Shown here in pieces: positions 37,111 through 44,560 of a DNA stretch of 64,000 bases. A program made the position numbers and the translations under genes. The stretch's first letter is position 1. The number at the start of each line of letters is the position of its first letter. Origin of the DNA: Candidatus Promineifilum breve. GTDB lineage: Bacteria; Chloroflexota; Anaerolineae; Promineifilales; Promineifilaceae. The DNA lies in contig NZ_LN890655.1 of NCBI RefSeq assembly GCF_900066015.1, positions 1,094,726 through 1,158,725 on the forward strand, read 5' to 3'. A model generated the notes under the pieces. The model saw only the letters and a program-made list of their open reading frames with translations. It was not told the DNA's origin and searched no databases.

Positions 37111-38208
<1,098 letters not shown>

Positions 38209-38219
38209 CCGTTTCTCCT

Positions 38220-39272
<1,053 letters not shown>

Positions 39273-39307
39273 GTTGCACTGTACTCCCCTTGATAAGGCG
39301 GGCGAGA

Positions 39308-40285
39308 CTAGAGTTTCAGACGCGGGTCAATCGCGTCGCGCAGACCATCGCCCAGATAATTGAAGGCGAGGGTCGTGACGAAGATCATCAGGCCGGGATA
39401 GAGGGCTTTCCACGGCGCGGTGAACATGTCTTTCTGCACACCCTGGAGCATATTGCCCCAGGTGGCGACCGGCGGCTGGATGCCGAAGCCCAGGAAGCTG
39501 AGGGCCGACTCCAGCACGATCACTCCGCCCAGGGCCAGCGAGGCGCTGACGATAATCGGCGGCAGGGCGTTGGGCATCATGTGGCGGGCGATGATATTGA
39601 GATCCGACATGCCCAGCGCGCGCGAAGCCTCGGTGAACTCCTGATTGCGCAGGCTCAGCACCATGCCGCGCGCCAGACGGCAAGCCCCTGTCCAGCCGAA
39701 AAGGGTCAGGATGGCGATGATGACGAAGGCCTGGCTCCATTCCGGTGGCAGGAACGGGATTTGCAGGTCGCGCAAAATGGACGACAGGGTGAGCAGCAGC
39801 GGCAAGGTGGGCAGGATGATGACGAACTCGGTGAAGCGCTGGATCAGGTTGTCGGTCCGGCCGCCGTAATAGCCGGACAAAGCGCCCATAAACATGCCGA
39901 ACGTCTCGGACAGGATGGTGACCGTAAAGGCGATGAATAGCGACAGCCGCCCGGCCATGAGGATGCGGAAGAACACGTCGCGGCCCAGCTCGTCCGTGCC
40001 CATCAGATGGTCACGCGACGGGGCGGCGTTGATATTGCGCAAGTCCTGAGCATCGCGCGAATAATTCATCTCGATGCCCTGGGCATGATTGAAGTAGGTC
40101 ATGCGCGACATGATGATCGGCCCGACGATGACCAGGACGATGATGGTGATGAGCAAGATGAGGCTGGCCGTCGCCAGCTTGTGCCGCCGCAAACGCTTCC
40201 AATAAGTCAGGACCAACGGCTCCGGCTTGGTCGATAATAAGGCATCAGCCTGTAGGCTGCTAAGGTCGATTTCGGTTACGGTCAT
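39308..40285 (-). CDS. peptide ABC transporter permease (DppC/OppC type)
   Basis: The 325-aa inner membrane protein has six predicted transmembrane helices. Its N-terminal OppC segment is LVLTYWKRLRRHKLATASL, the periplasmic HLMGTDELGRDVFFRILMAG motif is conserved, and the EAA loop that contacts the ATPases is EASRALGMSDLNIIARHMMPN. It forms the channel with the OppB-type permease just upstream. Confidence 0.95.
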   Translation of the reverse strand: MTVTEIDLSSLQADALLSTKPEPLVLTYWKRLRRHKLATASLILLITIIVLVIVGPIIMSRMTYFNHAQGIEMNYSRDAQDLRNINAAPSRDHLMGTDELGRDVFFRILMAGRLSLFIAFTVTILSETFGMFMGALSGYYGGRTDNLIQRFTEFVIILPTLPLLLTLSSILRDLQIPFLPPEWSQAFVIIAILTLFGWTGACRLARGMVLSLRNQEFTEASRALGMSDLNIIARHMMPNALPPIIVSASLALGGVIVLESALSFLGFGIQPPVATWGNMLQGVQKDMFTAPWKALYPGLMIFVTTLAFNYLGDGLRDAIDPRLKL

Positions 40286-40303
40286 ATGGCTATCCCCCTT
40301 TCA

Positions 40304-41491
40304 TTAATCAAAGCGGATGCGCGGATCGACAACGGTATAGAGAATATCGCCGATGAGGGTGGCAAAGACGACCAGGATGGCCGAGATGAACAGAATAGCC
40401 ATCACGATGGGCCAGTCGTCGCGGCCCAGGGCATCGATGAACAACCGCCCCATGCCCGGATAATTGAAGATCGTCTCGGTCAGGATCGCGCCGCTAAAGA
40501 TGCCCGGTATCTGGAAGACCACGATGGTGATGAGCGGGATGAGGGCGTTGCGGGCGGCGTGCTTGGCGATGACGGCCCGCTCGTGCAAGCCCTTGGCGCG
40601 GGCGGTGCGCACGTAGTCCTGGCGCAATACTTCCAGCATCGACGAGCGCATGAAGCGGCTCCAGCCGGCCAGATAGAGCAGGGTCAACACCGTAACCGGC
40701 AGGATGAGATGGACGATACGGTCGGCCAACGTGCCGGGGACGATGTTGAACACATCCTGGACACTGCCCGGCGTGACGCGCGTGGTAAACACGTCGCCGG
40801 ACGGGAAATAGGGCAGGCCCCACTCGCGAAATTTCAGCGTGAACAGGATGATCATCAGCAGCCCAAACCAGAACACGGGCATGGAGATGCCGAAGAAGCT
40901 AAACGTTGTGACGGCGTAATCCATCCGGGAGTACTGCCGCACGGCGGAGATGATGCCGATGGGTATGGCGATCAGCAGGGAGATGACCGTCACCGTCGAC
41001 ATCAAGATGAGCGTGTTTTTGATGCGGCTGCCAATGACGCTGGTAACGGTTTGGCCGCGGGCCAGCGCCCACGACTCGCCCCAGTCCCAGCGCAGTACCC
41101 CCCGGCTGCATGGAAATTTCTTCTCCGGGTCAGCGCCGCGATTGGTGCCGCCGGCGGCCTGGCAACCGGGCGACTGGAAGTCGGCCCACGTGCCGGTGAC
41201 GGCCATCTTTTCCGCCGAACCGGGGTTGCCGATGGCATTGCCGACCTCATCGACCCAGTCCTCGCCCAATAGCCAGGTCAGATAGGCCAGATAGAACGGC
41301 TTGTTGAGACCCAACGTCGCCTCGATGCGGGCGATTTCCTGGGGGCTGAGGCGATTCTTGGCCCCCACAGCCATATTCAGGCCGGAGAGCGGCCCACCCG
41401 GCACCGCGTTGAGCAGAGCGAAGATAGCCACGGTAGCCAGCAGGACGACCACGATCATCTGCAATCCGCGACGGATAAGATAACTGGTCAT
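40304..41491 (-). CDS. peptide ABC transporter permease (DppB/OppB type)
   Basis: The 395-aa inner membrane protein starts with the OppB helix YLIRRGLQMIVVVLLATVAI. The usual periplasmic loop is longer than average, about 75 extra residues around the segment KMAVTGTWADFQSPGC. The conserved WFGLLMIILF helix and the EAA loop TARAKGLHERAVIAKHAARN follow. The enlarged loop is common in this branch of the family. It lies 18 bp upstream of the OppC-type gene. A 223-bp space containing a long hairpin separates it from the binding-protein gene. Confidence 0.94.
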   Translation of the reverse strand: MTSYLIRRGLQMIVVVLLATVAIFALLNAVPGGPLSGLNMAVGAKNRLSPQEIARIEATLGLNKPFYLAYLTWLLGEDWVDEVGNAIGNPGSAEKMAVTGTWADFQSPGCQAAGGTNRGADPEKKFPCSRGVLRWDWGESWALARGQTVTSVIGSRIKNTLILMSTVTVISLLIAIPIGIISAVRQYSRMDYAVTTFSFFGISMPVFWFGLLMIILFTLKFREWGLPYFPSGDVFTTRVTPGSVQDVFNIVPGTLADRIVHLILPVTVLTLLYLAGWSRFMRSSMLEVLRQDYVRTARAKGLHERAVIAKHAARNALIPLITIVVFQIPGIFSGAILTETIFNYPGMGRLFIDALGRDDWPIVMAILFISAILVVFATLIGDILYTVVDPRIRFD

Positions 41492-41714: not shown

Positions 41715-43685
41715 TTACTGTTGCAGGTCGATCTCTTCGATGTTGTAGAGGTGGGAGTTCTGGGTCGGGTCGATACCGTAATTCAGAACTTCGGGCCGGG
41801 TGACGCCGGTCTTCACACTCAGGAATACCGGGATGACCGGCACTTCCTGCGAGAAGATCTGCTGGGCCAGGGTGTGGCCTTCCACGTACTCCGGCGTGCC
41901 GGGCAGCGAGCCGAGCGCCTGGGCACAGGCCGCGTCGTACTCTTCGGTGTTCCAACCGGTGTTGTTCTGGCCGCCCCAGCCGCTGCCGAAAGGCTGGCCG
42001 GTGCGCGGGTTGGTCTCATCGGCCGGGCCGGGGATCTGCGAACCCATGTACAGTTCGCACGCCGGCTGCACGCCCGTCAACCAGGCGAACAGACCGAGGT
42101 CATAGCGGCGACCGAACAGCGGCCCTTCGGGGCCATCGGCGAACCACTCGGCTGCCGGCAGGTAGTACAGGGAAACGTCGATGCCGCAGGCCGCCATGTT
42201 CTCCTTGAAGATCTGGGTCATGCCCTGGCGCAGGACGTTACCGGCGGTCGTGCCCAGCGACGGGGCGAAGCGGACGCCATCGGGGTCGATGCGGAAGCCT
42301 TCGTCGTCGCGCTGGTCGTAACCGGCCTCATCCAGCAGCGCGTTGGCCGCTTCGGGATCGAAAGCCCATTCGGTCAGGCCCTCGGTCGGGTACAGCGGGT
42401 GGACGCTGGGGATGTAGGTGTGGATGATCTCCGAACGGCCAAAGAGCAGGTTATCGACCATGCCCTGGCGGTCGGTGCACATCGTCATGGCCTGGCGGAC
42501 GCGGACGTCCTCGAACCAGTCATAGCGCGTGTCGGTGTAGTCGCCCCAGGTATCGACGGCGAAGTCGATGTGCTGGAAGGTCGTGCCGGTCTGGAAGTAG
42601 GGCACCAGCAGGCCGGAGGCCTCGGCTTCAGTCAGGAACGGCGCGTCGGCGACTTCGAGACCCGGCTCGGGCACGATGTCGCATTGGCCGGACAGAACCT
42701 GGGCCAACAACTGGTTGGTGTCGGGGATGAACTTGAAGGTGACGCTATCCAGATAGGGCAGGCCCTCATCGGCGCGATAGTAATTCTCGTTGCGCACCAT
42801 GCGGATGCTGTCGCCGGCGATCCACTCTTCGAGGACGAACGGGCCGTCACCGATGGGCATACGGCTCGATTCTTCGGCCTCCAGCAGTTCGGCGGCCGTG
42901 AACGCGCCCCAGATGTGCTCCGGGTACGGTTGCCAGAAGTTGATAAAGTAGGTGGAATCGCGGAAGCCGGGCAGGCCCGTCCAGCGCGTGCTCAGATCGC
43001 CCGTCGCCTCATAGCTGGCGGTGCGCTCGGCGGTGTACTTGGTGCTCGGCGTGTCCGGGTCCAGCAACAGGTTGAAGCTGTAGACCGAGTCCGAAGCATT
43101 CACCGGCGTACCGTCGGAAAAGACCGTGGGCTTCATCGTGAAGTCGACGACCAGTTGATCCATCATCACCGGCGTGCCGTCGAAGGTCACTTCTTCGCCG
43201 GCGGAGTTCATCACGATGTCGCCGGCGGCCAGGGGGCCAACCACGTCACCGACCTTGAGGACGACGTCGCCCTCATTCACTTCCACGGAGTTGAGGACCG
43301 CGTCGCCATCTTCCAAACTCGGAATCTTCTCCAGGGCATCGGCCTGGAAGGCATAGGAGAGCGTGGTGATGTAGTCTTCAAAAATGGCGTGCTGCACATT
43401 GGTGGCAGCCAGCATGGAACCACCATACGGGTACAGGGTTTCCGGTTCCTGGGATTGGCAGATCACCAGGTCTTTCGGCATCACCGGGGCTTCGGTCGGC
43501 ACGGCAGTCACTTCGACGATTTGCTCGACGACGCGCGTCACTTCGACCTCGGCGCCTTCTTCGGTAATCGTCTCGGTGACCACGCGGGTCACTTCGACGG
43601 TCTGCGCCTGAGGCTGACAGGCCACCAGCACAAAGGCTCCCAACAACACAAACAGGGCTACAAAAACCCAAACTTTCTTCGACAT
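41715..43685 (-). CDS. peptide-binding lipoprotein of an ABC transporter (SBP family 5)
   Basis: The 656-aa protein has a lipoprotein signal with the lipobox LVAC (cysteine at about residue 23). A V/T/E-rich linker with repeated VEVTRVV follows, typical of Chloroflexota binding proteins, then the family 5 extracellular solute-binding fold: WTMKP-like DFTMKPTVFSDGTPVNASDS, TYFINFWQPYPEH, LDSVTFKFIPDTNQ and ERNENYYR-like RMVRNENYYRADEG. It captures peptides or other solutes outside the membrane and hands them to the permeases downstream. A GAGGA site precedes the ATG. It is the first gene of the operon, behind a long structured leader. Confidence 0.94.
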   Translation of the reverse strand: MSKKVWVFVALFVLLGAFVLVACQPQAQTVEVTRVVTETITEEGAEVEVTRVVEQIVEVTAVPTEAPVMPKDLVICQSQEPETLYPYGGSMLAATNVQHAIFEDYITTLSYAFQADALEKIPSLEDGDAVLNSVEVNEGDVVLKVGDVVGPLAAGDIVMNSAGEEVTFDGTPVMMDQLVVDFTMKPTVFSDGTPVNASDSVYSFNLLLDPDTPSTKYTAERTASYEATGDLSTRWTGLPGFRDSTYFINFWQPYPEHIWGAFTAAELLEAEESSRMPIGDGPFVLEEWIAGDSIRMVRNENYYRADEGLPYLDSVTFKFIPDTNQLLAQVLSGQCDIVPEPGLEVADAPFLTEAEASGLLVPYFQTGTTFQHIDFAVDTWGDYTDTRYDWFEDVRVRQAMTMCTDRQGMVDNLLFGRSEIIHTYIPSVHPLYPTEGLTEWAFDPEAANALLDEAGYDQRDDEGFRIDPDGVRFAPSLGTTAGNVLRQGMTQIFKENMAACGIDVSLYYLPAAEWFADGPEGPLFGRRYDLGLFAWLTGVQPACELYMGSQIPGPADETNPRTGQPFGSGWGGQNNTGWNTEEYDAACAQALGSLPGTPEYVEGHTLAQQIFSQEVPVIPVFLSVKTGVTRPEVLNYGIDPTQNSHLYNIEEIDLQQ

Positions 43686-44012
43686 GTTAGATTGTCCTCC
43701 TCTAACAACTTACAACTTAAGTTTCACTGACTTAACCCGGCCTATCCAGCAGCACGGCCGGGTTACGCCGCTCGGCGTCTACAATCTCTGAGGTAATCCT
43801 GGCGATTGTTTCGTCGCCAACAGTCAGGCATCAGACAGATGCACCACCTCCTTCAATGGGTTATTTAGCTACGCCTTGCAAAAACGAAAAACACAGCCAT
43901 GTCCTTCGCGCCCTGCGCGAGGAAGGCTGTGTTCAAGCTACCCCTGCCGATTATGCAGCATTATGAATTCGCAGCGAACAGACACACCGAAGTGAAAGAT
44001 TGCTTAGAAGTA
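43686..44012 (-). promoter_or_regulatory. structured leader RNA of the peptide ABC operon (candidate regulatory RNA)
   Basis: About 327 nt lie between the predicted transcription start and the binding-protein ATG. In transcript order it contains a terminator-like hairpin (43933-43881), an AAGGAGG sequence (about 43854-43848), and a chain of small perfect hairpins: GCATC/GATGC, GGCGA/TCGCC, ACGCC/GGCGT and TAACCCGGCC/GGCCGGGTTA (43765-43733). A 22-codon reading frame (43831-43763; starts MPDCWRRN, ends CRRRAA) runs through these hairpins, and its TAA is the first triplet of the last stem. This arrangement suggests attenuation or a riboswitch-like switch. I do not recognise a described family. 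Confidence 0.55.
43881..43933 (-). terminator. terminator-like hairpin in the operon leader (attenuator candidate)
   Basis: The outer stem AACACAGCC/GGCTGTGTT (43933-43925 with 43898-43890) encloses a second stem of TCCT/AGGA and CGCGC/GCGCG around an AGG loop. On the minus strand it is followed by TTTCGTTTTTGC. It lies about 80 nt after the predicted start point and 195 nt before the coding region, so it would stop transcription unless it is opened. Confidence 0.7.
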
Positions 44013-44018
44013 TGGGGG

Positions 44019-44047
44019 ATTATAGTGGGGTGTTATCGTCCTGTCAA
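44019..44047 (-). promoter_or_regulatory. perfect-consensus promoter of the peptide ABC operon
   Basis: On the minus strand TTGACA (44047-44042) and TATAAT (44024-44019) are exactly 17 bp apart, all twelve bases matching the consensus. The predicted start is near 44012. The strong promoter combined with a terminator-like leader hairpin suggests control after initiation. The stretch 44048-44106 shows nothing else. Confidence 0.88.
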
Positions 44048-44106: not shown

Positions 44107-44150
44107 GAAAAGAAAGAAACCGGGTTTTCAGGAAAAAACCCGGTTTCTAG
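44107..44150 (-). terminator. terminator of ssrA, formed by the GAAACCGGG hairpin repeat (copy 3)
   Basis: The inverted repeat GAAACCGGG/CCCGGTTTC (44116-44147) around TTTTCAGGAAAAAA begins four bases after the mature tmRNA 3' end. On the minus strand it is followed by TTTCTTTTCTCC. It is a variant (CCGGG in place of CCGAG) of the repeats at 23693 and 34352, here plainly working as an intrinsic terminator. Confidence 0.88.
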
Positions 44151-44560
44151 TGGAGATGGCGGGAATCGAACCCGCGTCCGAAAAATTCGACCTCCAGATG
44201 TCTACAAGCTTAGTCGACCTTTTAGTTTGGCGGTCGGGCGCCCCGGTCAACTGGGTCAGCCGCCCGCTATCCGATTGCCCCCGAGAGGGCGTCTCTAGCC
44301 GCGCCTATCGGAGTTAGCGCGGAGCACGTTGGCATTAATGTCGCCCGCTAATGCCCGGCCAACGAACGGACAAAAGCGAACGGGTTCCTTGTTTAGGGGA
44401 ACATCTGGCTATCCCTAAGCTACTTTACGCAGCCATCGGGAGAGCACTGTAGGCATTGGTGCGGTTGGCACTTATGCGTGTGCTTCCAGTTTTACGAGAT
44501 GTGAAGCGTGCTCGGCTTGCAATCCAGGGCCAGCCTTCCCCGTCGAAGCCAGTCATCCCC
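44151..44560 (-). ncRNA. ssrA: transfer-messenger RNA (tmRNA)
   Basis: tmRNA rescues stalled ribosomes and tags the nascent chain. The 5' end GGGGATGACTGGCTTCGACG (from 44560) pairs through GGGGATG with CATCTCC near the 3' end (discriminator at 44151), forming the tRNA-like acceptor. The T-arm GGGTTCGATTCCCGC is intact. No CCA is encoded. The tag reading frame is at 44469-44425, GCC AAC CGC ... GCG TAA, giving ANRTNAYSALPMAA. The tag ends in MAA and not the common LAA. Length (410 nt) is normal for a one-piece tmRNA, with pseudoknot-rich GC sequence between tag and 3' domain. Confidence 0.96.

Follow-up and report, generated by a model that had tools for sequence, protein, structure and literature searches.

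An extended Shine-Dalgarno box upstream of solute-binding lipoprotein genes in Anaerolineae: a candidate STAB-SD-like element, placed behind a conserved terminator in one leader

Solute-binding lipoprotein (SBP) genes of Anaerolineae often carry an extended Shine-Dalgarno (SD) box far upstream of their own ribosome-binding site (RBS), the core of which, GGAGGTG, was the commonest 7-mer at -260 to -50 among the lipoprotein SBPs of 20 genomes (31 of 71 non-redundant genes). We tentatively propose, as a reading that falls somewhat short of an even chance, that Anaerolineae use this dedicated non-coding box for 30S docking and thereby as an mRNA-stability tag on lipoprotein SBP genes, which would form a STAB-SD regulon setting how much binding protein is made relative to permease. 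In the window the box would be stacked behind a conserved terminator, with transcript number and transcript lifetime set separately.

The window is the whole stretch of DNA analyzed, 64,000 nucleotides from Candidatus Promineifilum breve. Within it a minus-strand leader sits between ssrA and a family-5 SBP gene, the start codon of which lies at 43685. The features of this locus are as follows:

44148..44560, minus strand: ssrA (tmRNA), the upstream neighbour (RF00023, 146 bits)
44148-44115, minus strand: ssrA's own terminator
44019..44047, minus strand: sigma-70 type promoter TTGACA-17-TATAAT (12/12 match), RNA start assumed near 44012
43880..43934, minus strand: intrinsic terminator, stem 43934-43925 with 43898-43889, then TTCGTTTTT
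43841..43853, minus strand: box AAGGAGGTGGTGC, an extended SD and proposed 30S docking site, distinct from the SBP RBS
43790..43797, minus strand: possible anti-box ATTACCTC, a potential pairing partner of the box; shared with G006, so present in 2/7 leaders
43733..43765, minus strand: GC-rich hairpin TAACCCGGCC/GGCCGGGTTA (inverted repeat 4); helix 3 of the alignment, 6/10 pairs changed on both sides, 84% of cells paired
43686..43706, minus strand: RBS AGGAGG (43701-43696) in the loop of GTTAG/CTAAC; helix 4 of the alignment, nearly invariant
41715..43685, minus strand: family-5 solute-binding lipoprotein, first gene of the transporter operon (PF00496, 204 bits)
37111..41491, minus strand: remaining operon, with permeases at 40304-41491 and 39308-40285 and ATPases at 38220-39272 and 37111-38208

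From 43685 downwards the operon comprises five genes, namely the SBP, two permeases and two ATPases, and is of the oligopeptide type.

The leader and its conservation in the genus

A DNA search of 59 relatives led to the identification of the leader in congeners, and seven leaders were compared (the window, G001, G002, G003, G004, G005 and G006). A common plan was found in all seven genomes, consisting of a consensus promoter, an intrinsic terminator, the box, a GC hairpin, an RBS and the SBP gene. TTGACA and TATA(A/C)T are present in 7/7 leaders, and a scan for a promoter nearer to the SBP gene found none. The terminator is also present in 7/7 (-20.8 to -28.7 kcal/mol), and its end lies 115-123 nt past the assumed RNA start; in the window the hairpin 43934-43889 with TTCGTTTTT reaches -28.7 kcal/mol, and the 71-nt stretch around it gave z = -3.8 against shuffles. 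The perfect promoter and the terminator-like hairpin with a T-rich tail, both described in the first-pass annotation of this DNA, were thus recovered. The box follows 28-39 nt past the terminator as AAGGAGGTGRTGC or a close variant, and an RTGC after it is kept in 7/7 leaders.

In the seven-genome alignment 10 of the 29 named pairs were altered on both sides, a count that is lowered by two sequences shifted in the terminator and favoured by a structure taken from the consensus, and the covariation score exceeded all 500 shuffles and all slid controls. The leader folds better than shuffled sequence (z = -2.7), and the 136-nt stretch containing the box and the hairpins gave z = -3.1 against shuffles. 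This comparison supports a terminator maintained by compensatory change and indicates that the window leader is a real, conserved non-coding leader of the SBP gene. Premature termination within the leader is plausible because the conserved leader carries a covarying intrinsic terminator, and the terminator of the window probably attenuates transcription.

The first-pass annotation had suspected a new regulatory RNA upstream of the transporter operon, under ligand or leader-peptide control, and had recommended a search for covariation in relatives. The leader proved conserved, with helices that covary among the seven genus genomes, rather than lacking both; the conserved leader with its covarying terminator therefore stood, and the ligand and leader-peptide parts found no support. 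With respect to a ligand, Rfam scans of the window leader and of a set of related leaders yielded nothing that reached the gathering score, and low-scoring matches to unrelated families were all that appeared at E <= 10. RNAalifold on the seven sequences found no helix lying within the promoter-to-terminator stretch. The intrinsic terminator expected of an attenuator or riboswitch is present; a conserved sensing domain ahead of it was seen neither as a consensus helix nor as an Rfam match.

Four perfect short hairpins and a 22-codon frame (43831-43763) had also been reported. All four inverted repeats and the frame do exist in the window, and repeat 4, the GC-rich hairpin, covaries; repeats 1-3 are not conserved, and repeats 3 and 4 share base 43765. 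In the seven-genome alignment, read by eye, repeat 1 (GCATC/GATGC) occurs in the window only, the position of repeat 2 carries a hairpin in 2/7 leaders, made of different letters, and repeat 3 occurs in 3/7. The two nearest relatives, G006 and G002, lack the ATG of the 22-codon frame at the corresponding position. A leader-peptide attenuator would have a conserved ORF overlapping hairpins ahead of the terminator; the frame of the window lies downstream of the terminator and is unconserved, and behind the box stop codons come at equal distances in all three frames. Attenuation by a leader peptide is not supported. The letters of the GTTAG/CTAAC stem around the SBP RBS are the same in 6/7 genus leaders and are too invariant for the comparison to judge the importance of the stem.

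The first-pass annotation correctly placed AAGGAGG at 43853-43847 and took it as a detail, missing the extended SD box that recurs before other SBP genes; by the comparisons described below, this AAGGAGG is part of the most widely conserved element of the leader. The box of the window lies 166 nt before the SBP start, and the SBP has its separate RBS at 43701-43696. The 16S tail in the window genome is GGCTGGATCACCTCCTT, to which the box is complementary over up to 11 nt. The window box is predicted to be paired; masking of the box by the anti-box would be at most a local trait, as five of the seven leaders lack the anti-box.

With regard to the neighbouring ssrA, the leader of G002 lies between two tandem SBP genes and not beside ssrA, and in G005 an SBP gene without a leader intervenes between ssrA and the leader; these arrangements separate the leader from ssrA and keep it with the SBP gene. 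Near the SBP leaders of other genera no tmRNA was detected. As G002 and other genera have such leaders without an adjoining ssrA, a functional part for ssrA was rejected. In an eighth genus genome (G007), for which only the gene next to ssrA was considered, another SBP gene without a leader follows ssrA. Direct succession of ssrA and an SBP gene lacking both leader and box was recorded in G005 and G007 (L022/L212 and L023/L082), and tandem SBP copies occur near ssrA in the genus. A search of a phage collection gave no match.

Distribution of the box across lipoprotein SBP genes

An exact-pattern search for AAGGAGGTGRTGC was carried out in 52 genomes of the family and found it in 47, with at most 8 sites each; the reversed pattern was far less frequent. 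A total of 129 distinct sites were read, 57 of which precede a lipoprotein gene; 56 of these 57 lipoprotein leaders passed the distance and frame rule, giving 45 clusters. To avoid circularity, a box-independent set was gathered from 20 genomes by Pfam family of the SBP genes. It comprised 110 regions, with the start codon assigned by a simple scoring rule, of which 78 had a lipobox and 75 had enough upstream sequence, giving 71 clusters; 60 of the strips were chosen from the SBP list regardless of the box. In this set the 31 GGAGGTG sites lie at -76 to -205, with 20/46 within the family and 11/25 outside it, and the count is 29/69 when L302 (a site already in the exact-pattern list) and L217 (the window) are excluded.

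Controls gave much lower numbers. Reversed GGAGGTG was found in 3/71 and its reverse complement in 0/71; elsewhere upstream GGAGGTG occurred in 1/71 at -400 to -261 and in 0/71 at -59 to -20, and 100 dinucleotide shuffles gave a mean of 1.09 and a maximum of 3. Control genes with intergenic starts, taken with a crude gene caller, had the box in 0/91 cytosolic-type and 0/21 other secreted-type cases; lipoproteins in the same comparison had it in 9/24, mostly SBP genes gathered by similarity and so not independent. A chance SD was rejected on the 7-mer ranking, the control genes and the shuffles. In the same genes TG follows GGAGG in 2/37 ordinary RBSs versus 31/54 upstream occurrences, and the box as an ordinary RBS was ruled out, TG after GGAGG being rare at RBSs and usual upstream. 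In the window's genome no genome-wide excess of GGAGGTGRTG was found (37 versus 33 reversed); among the 30 of these 37 sites that were read, 5 lie 87-166 nt before a lipoprotein gene. Of the 31 sites in the box-independent set, 7 could be contained in an upstream ORF 80 or more codons long.

Little else is shared by these sites. The 45 independent exact sites show no strong conservation beyond the box, and their stop distances behind it have medians of 11, 12 and 11 codons in the three frames; a conserved leader peptide behind the box was rejected for the SBP class, the peptides being unrelated and the stop distances equal in all frames. The box has no constant local structure and is no more open than with shuffled flanks (0.312 versus 0.301), so an open box as a conserved structural trait was not found. 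A terminator beside the box was seen in 2/31 unbiased and 8/45 exact sites (0.9 and 1.1 in shuffles); a terminator next to every box was accordingly discarded, and the terminator and box layers are independent because most box sites lack an adjoining terminator. An RTG start codon follows the box in 16/31 unbiased sites (13/20 in the family, 3/11 outside), and this excess, more than 16S pairing requires, speaks against a pure docking role; at some boxes ribosomes may initiate and stop soon afterwards.

Among lipoprotein SBPs from outside the class, 3/18 had the box (reversed 1/18), and in further class members in 1/3 (reversed 0/3). With only the best SBP taken from each of 29 genomes in this phylum check, the case for generality of the box over the whole phylum is weak.

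The SBP leaders of other genera have no sequence likeness to the window; many contain the box, and some contain a promoter and a terminator-like hairpin. In a second genus 6/6 leaders have a promoter, a strong hairpin with a T-rich tail and the box 38-66 nt later, with the start codon 86-99 nt past the box. The leaders of this genus (L024, L026, L028, L032, L037 and L044) also show a hairpin of the CTGTTGAT/ATCAACAG type near the assumed start, about 250-270 nt ahead of the SBP start; an invariant CCCTCAAA occupies its loop and extends past it.

A second kind of leader was encountered in the same bacterial family, in which the box is followed by a leader ORF some 16-21 codons in length (often MDSNLSKRTVALPP...) and then by a terminator. 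The set comprises 21 leaders (L090, L091, L094, L096, L098, L101, L104, L109, L137, L149, L153, L165, L178, L191, L192, L195, L200, L201, L204, L205 and L210), located mostly before a homoserine dehydrogenase-like (hom) gene, with single cases before an argJ-like gene and an AAA/Lon-like gene, all named by eye. Within the leader ORF, ACC GTA GCG CTA CCT CCT mirrors the box (GGAGGTGGTGC with GCGCTACCTCC) and is also an arm of an alternative hairpin. In the 21 sequences 14 of the 29 consensus pairs were altered on both sides, and Rfam gave no match in the 7 loci scanned. This hom-type leader has the look of a so far undescribed attenuator whose SD is switchable. It shares with the window leader the identical box AAGGAGGTGGTGC and an ACCTCC anti-box; it differs in its conserved leader ORF, its conserved pairing of box and anti-box and its own terminator behind the box, none of which is conserved in the window leader.

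Known systems and competing explanations

In the STAB-SD of cry3A (Bacillus thuringiensis), an SD-like sequence at the -129 end of the message is described as binding the 30S subunit without translation and blocking RNase J1 (PMC4113751), and a review summarizes that strong SDs stabilize some messages without start codons (PMC7509114). The Anaerolineae box resembles this system in its position far upstream of the RBS (mostly -76 to -205 here), in its complementarity to the 16S tail and apparently in needing no coded product. An enzyme of the RNase J kind is encoded here as well (TIGR00649, 564 bits, above cut-off), so that three features of a STAB-SD, namely a 16S-complementary SD-like sequence in the 5' UTR, its location far upstream of the gene's own RBS and an RNase J, were found; position, sequence and enzyme fit. 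On a further feature, that the sequence does not direct translation, the observations point both ways, with no frame bias or peptide conservation on one side and the RTG behind the box in 16/31 sites on the other. The differences are that the Chloroflexota box belongs to another phylum and precedes one functional gene class, that it carries a TG(R) extension, frequently with an RTG after it, that in the window it lies behind a terminator, and that stabilization is here a prediction. The SD given for Anaerolineae in a survey is AAAGGAGG (PMC10783764), and the TG(R) extension of the box therefore exceeds the SD recorded there. Among the listed open-licence PMC articles that contain the term STAB-SD (29 of 31), judged by title and start of abstract, none concerns Chloroflexota, and the literature listings gave no report of this box.

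Ribosome-dependent 5' stabilizers similar to STAB-SD are present in hbs, aprE and gsiB of B. subtilis, and in hbs initiating ribosomes reportedly protect the message. Riboswitches and transcription attenuators share with the window leader an intrinsic terminator within a conserved leader, but the latter has no conserved sensor or Rfam match. A transcription attenuator or riboswitch, in which the first 120 nt or a factor senses a signal and selects between termination and read-through with the box being secondary, is nevertheless a serious candidate, although we would not put it quite at even. The fixed distance between promoter and terminator in 7/7 leaders, the covariation of the terminator and the same order of elements in 6/6 leaders of the second genus are consistent with it, whereas the absence of a conserved helix before the terminator in the alignment, the lack of an Rfam match and the majority of boxes without a terminator argue against it. 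The attenuator and the 30S-docking readings can be true together. The same promoter and terminator at constant distance could also delimit an independent gene for a small RNA some 120 nt long, placed before the SBP gene by chance, which we consider very improbable: the unit moves with the SBP gene and not with ssrA (G002, G005 and other genera), and the scan found no promoter nearer to the SBP gene.

Two further explanations, both of which we regard as unlikely, assign the box to translation. If it were the RBS of a real leader ORF controlling the SBP gene by coupling, re-initiation or arrest, the ATG, GTG or TTG at spacing 2 in 17/31 sites, the RTGC in 7/7 genus leaders and the leader ORF preceded by the same box at usual spacing before hom would be accounted for; yet the peptides are unrelated, range from 2 to 71 codons and show no frame bias, RTG is missing in 8/11 sites outside the family, and initiation is inefficient with only 2 nt between SD and start codon. 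Leader-peptide attenuators likewise resemble the window in its short frames and hairpins and differ from it in that the window frame is unconserved and behind the terminator. Alternatively, the box could be a standby or ribosome-loading site at which a 30S subunit waits before being passed to the SBP RBS, with a gain in translation and not in stability. The same 16S pairing and the enclosure of the SBP RBS in a small hairpin in 6/7 genus leaders are in line with this explanation, but 75-205 nt, at a spacing that is not constant, is a long distance for a standby site, and a near-perfect SD should release the subunit slowly.

Proposed role of the box and its meaning

A STAB-SD-like reading is preferred here because the position of the box, its 16S complementarity and the presence of RNase J fit the cry3A model, and the box is best read as a variant of the STAB-SD kind, an extended SD that is the most general part of these leaders. 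For the window itself, we judge it evenly poised whether the box is a STAB-SD-like 30S-docking site blocking 5'-3' decay by RNase J, with the terminator placed in front. Under this model RNA polymerase would start near 44012, and the terminator at about +120 would end part of the transcripts, by attenuation or as a short RNA, the rest being read through. The box, (A)AGGAGGTG(R), would then dock a 30S subunit or an initiating ribosome making a few meaningless codons, and the particle parked at 43853-43841 would stop RNase J digesting from the 5' end after the leader had been cut or dephosphorylated, the read-through RNA being cut or trimmed as far as the parked 30S. The SBP message, translated from the RBS at 43701-43696, would be left with its 5' end shielded immediately before the box and would outlive the rest of the operon, and stabilization of this kind, which we infer, would yield binding protein in excess of permease.

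Importers need their binding protein in excess over the permease, and if the reading is true the box helps to explain how this overproduction is achieved. STAB-SD elements are known from few Firmicute messages, and the box stands before about 4 in 10 of the sampled lipoprotein SBP genes in a class of another phylum; if it is a STAB-SD, 30S-mediated mRNA protection would be a regular device and not an oddity. The box sites also provide a list of loci at which the STAB-SD model is testable, and they caution against taking every strong SD far upstream of a gene for the start of a missed small gene.
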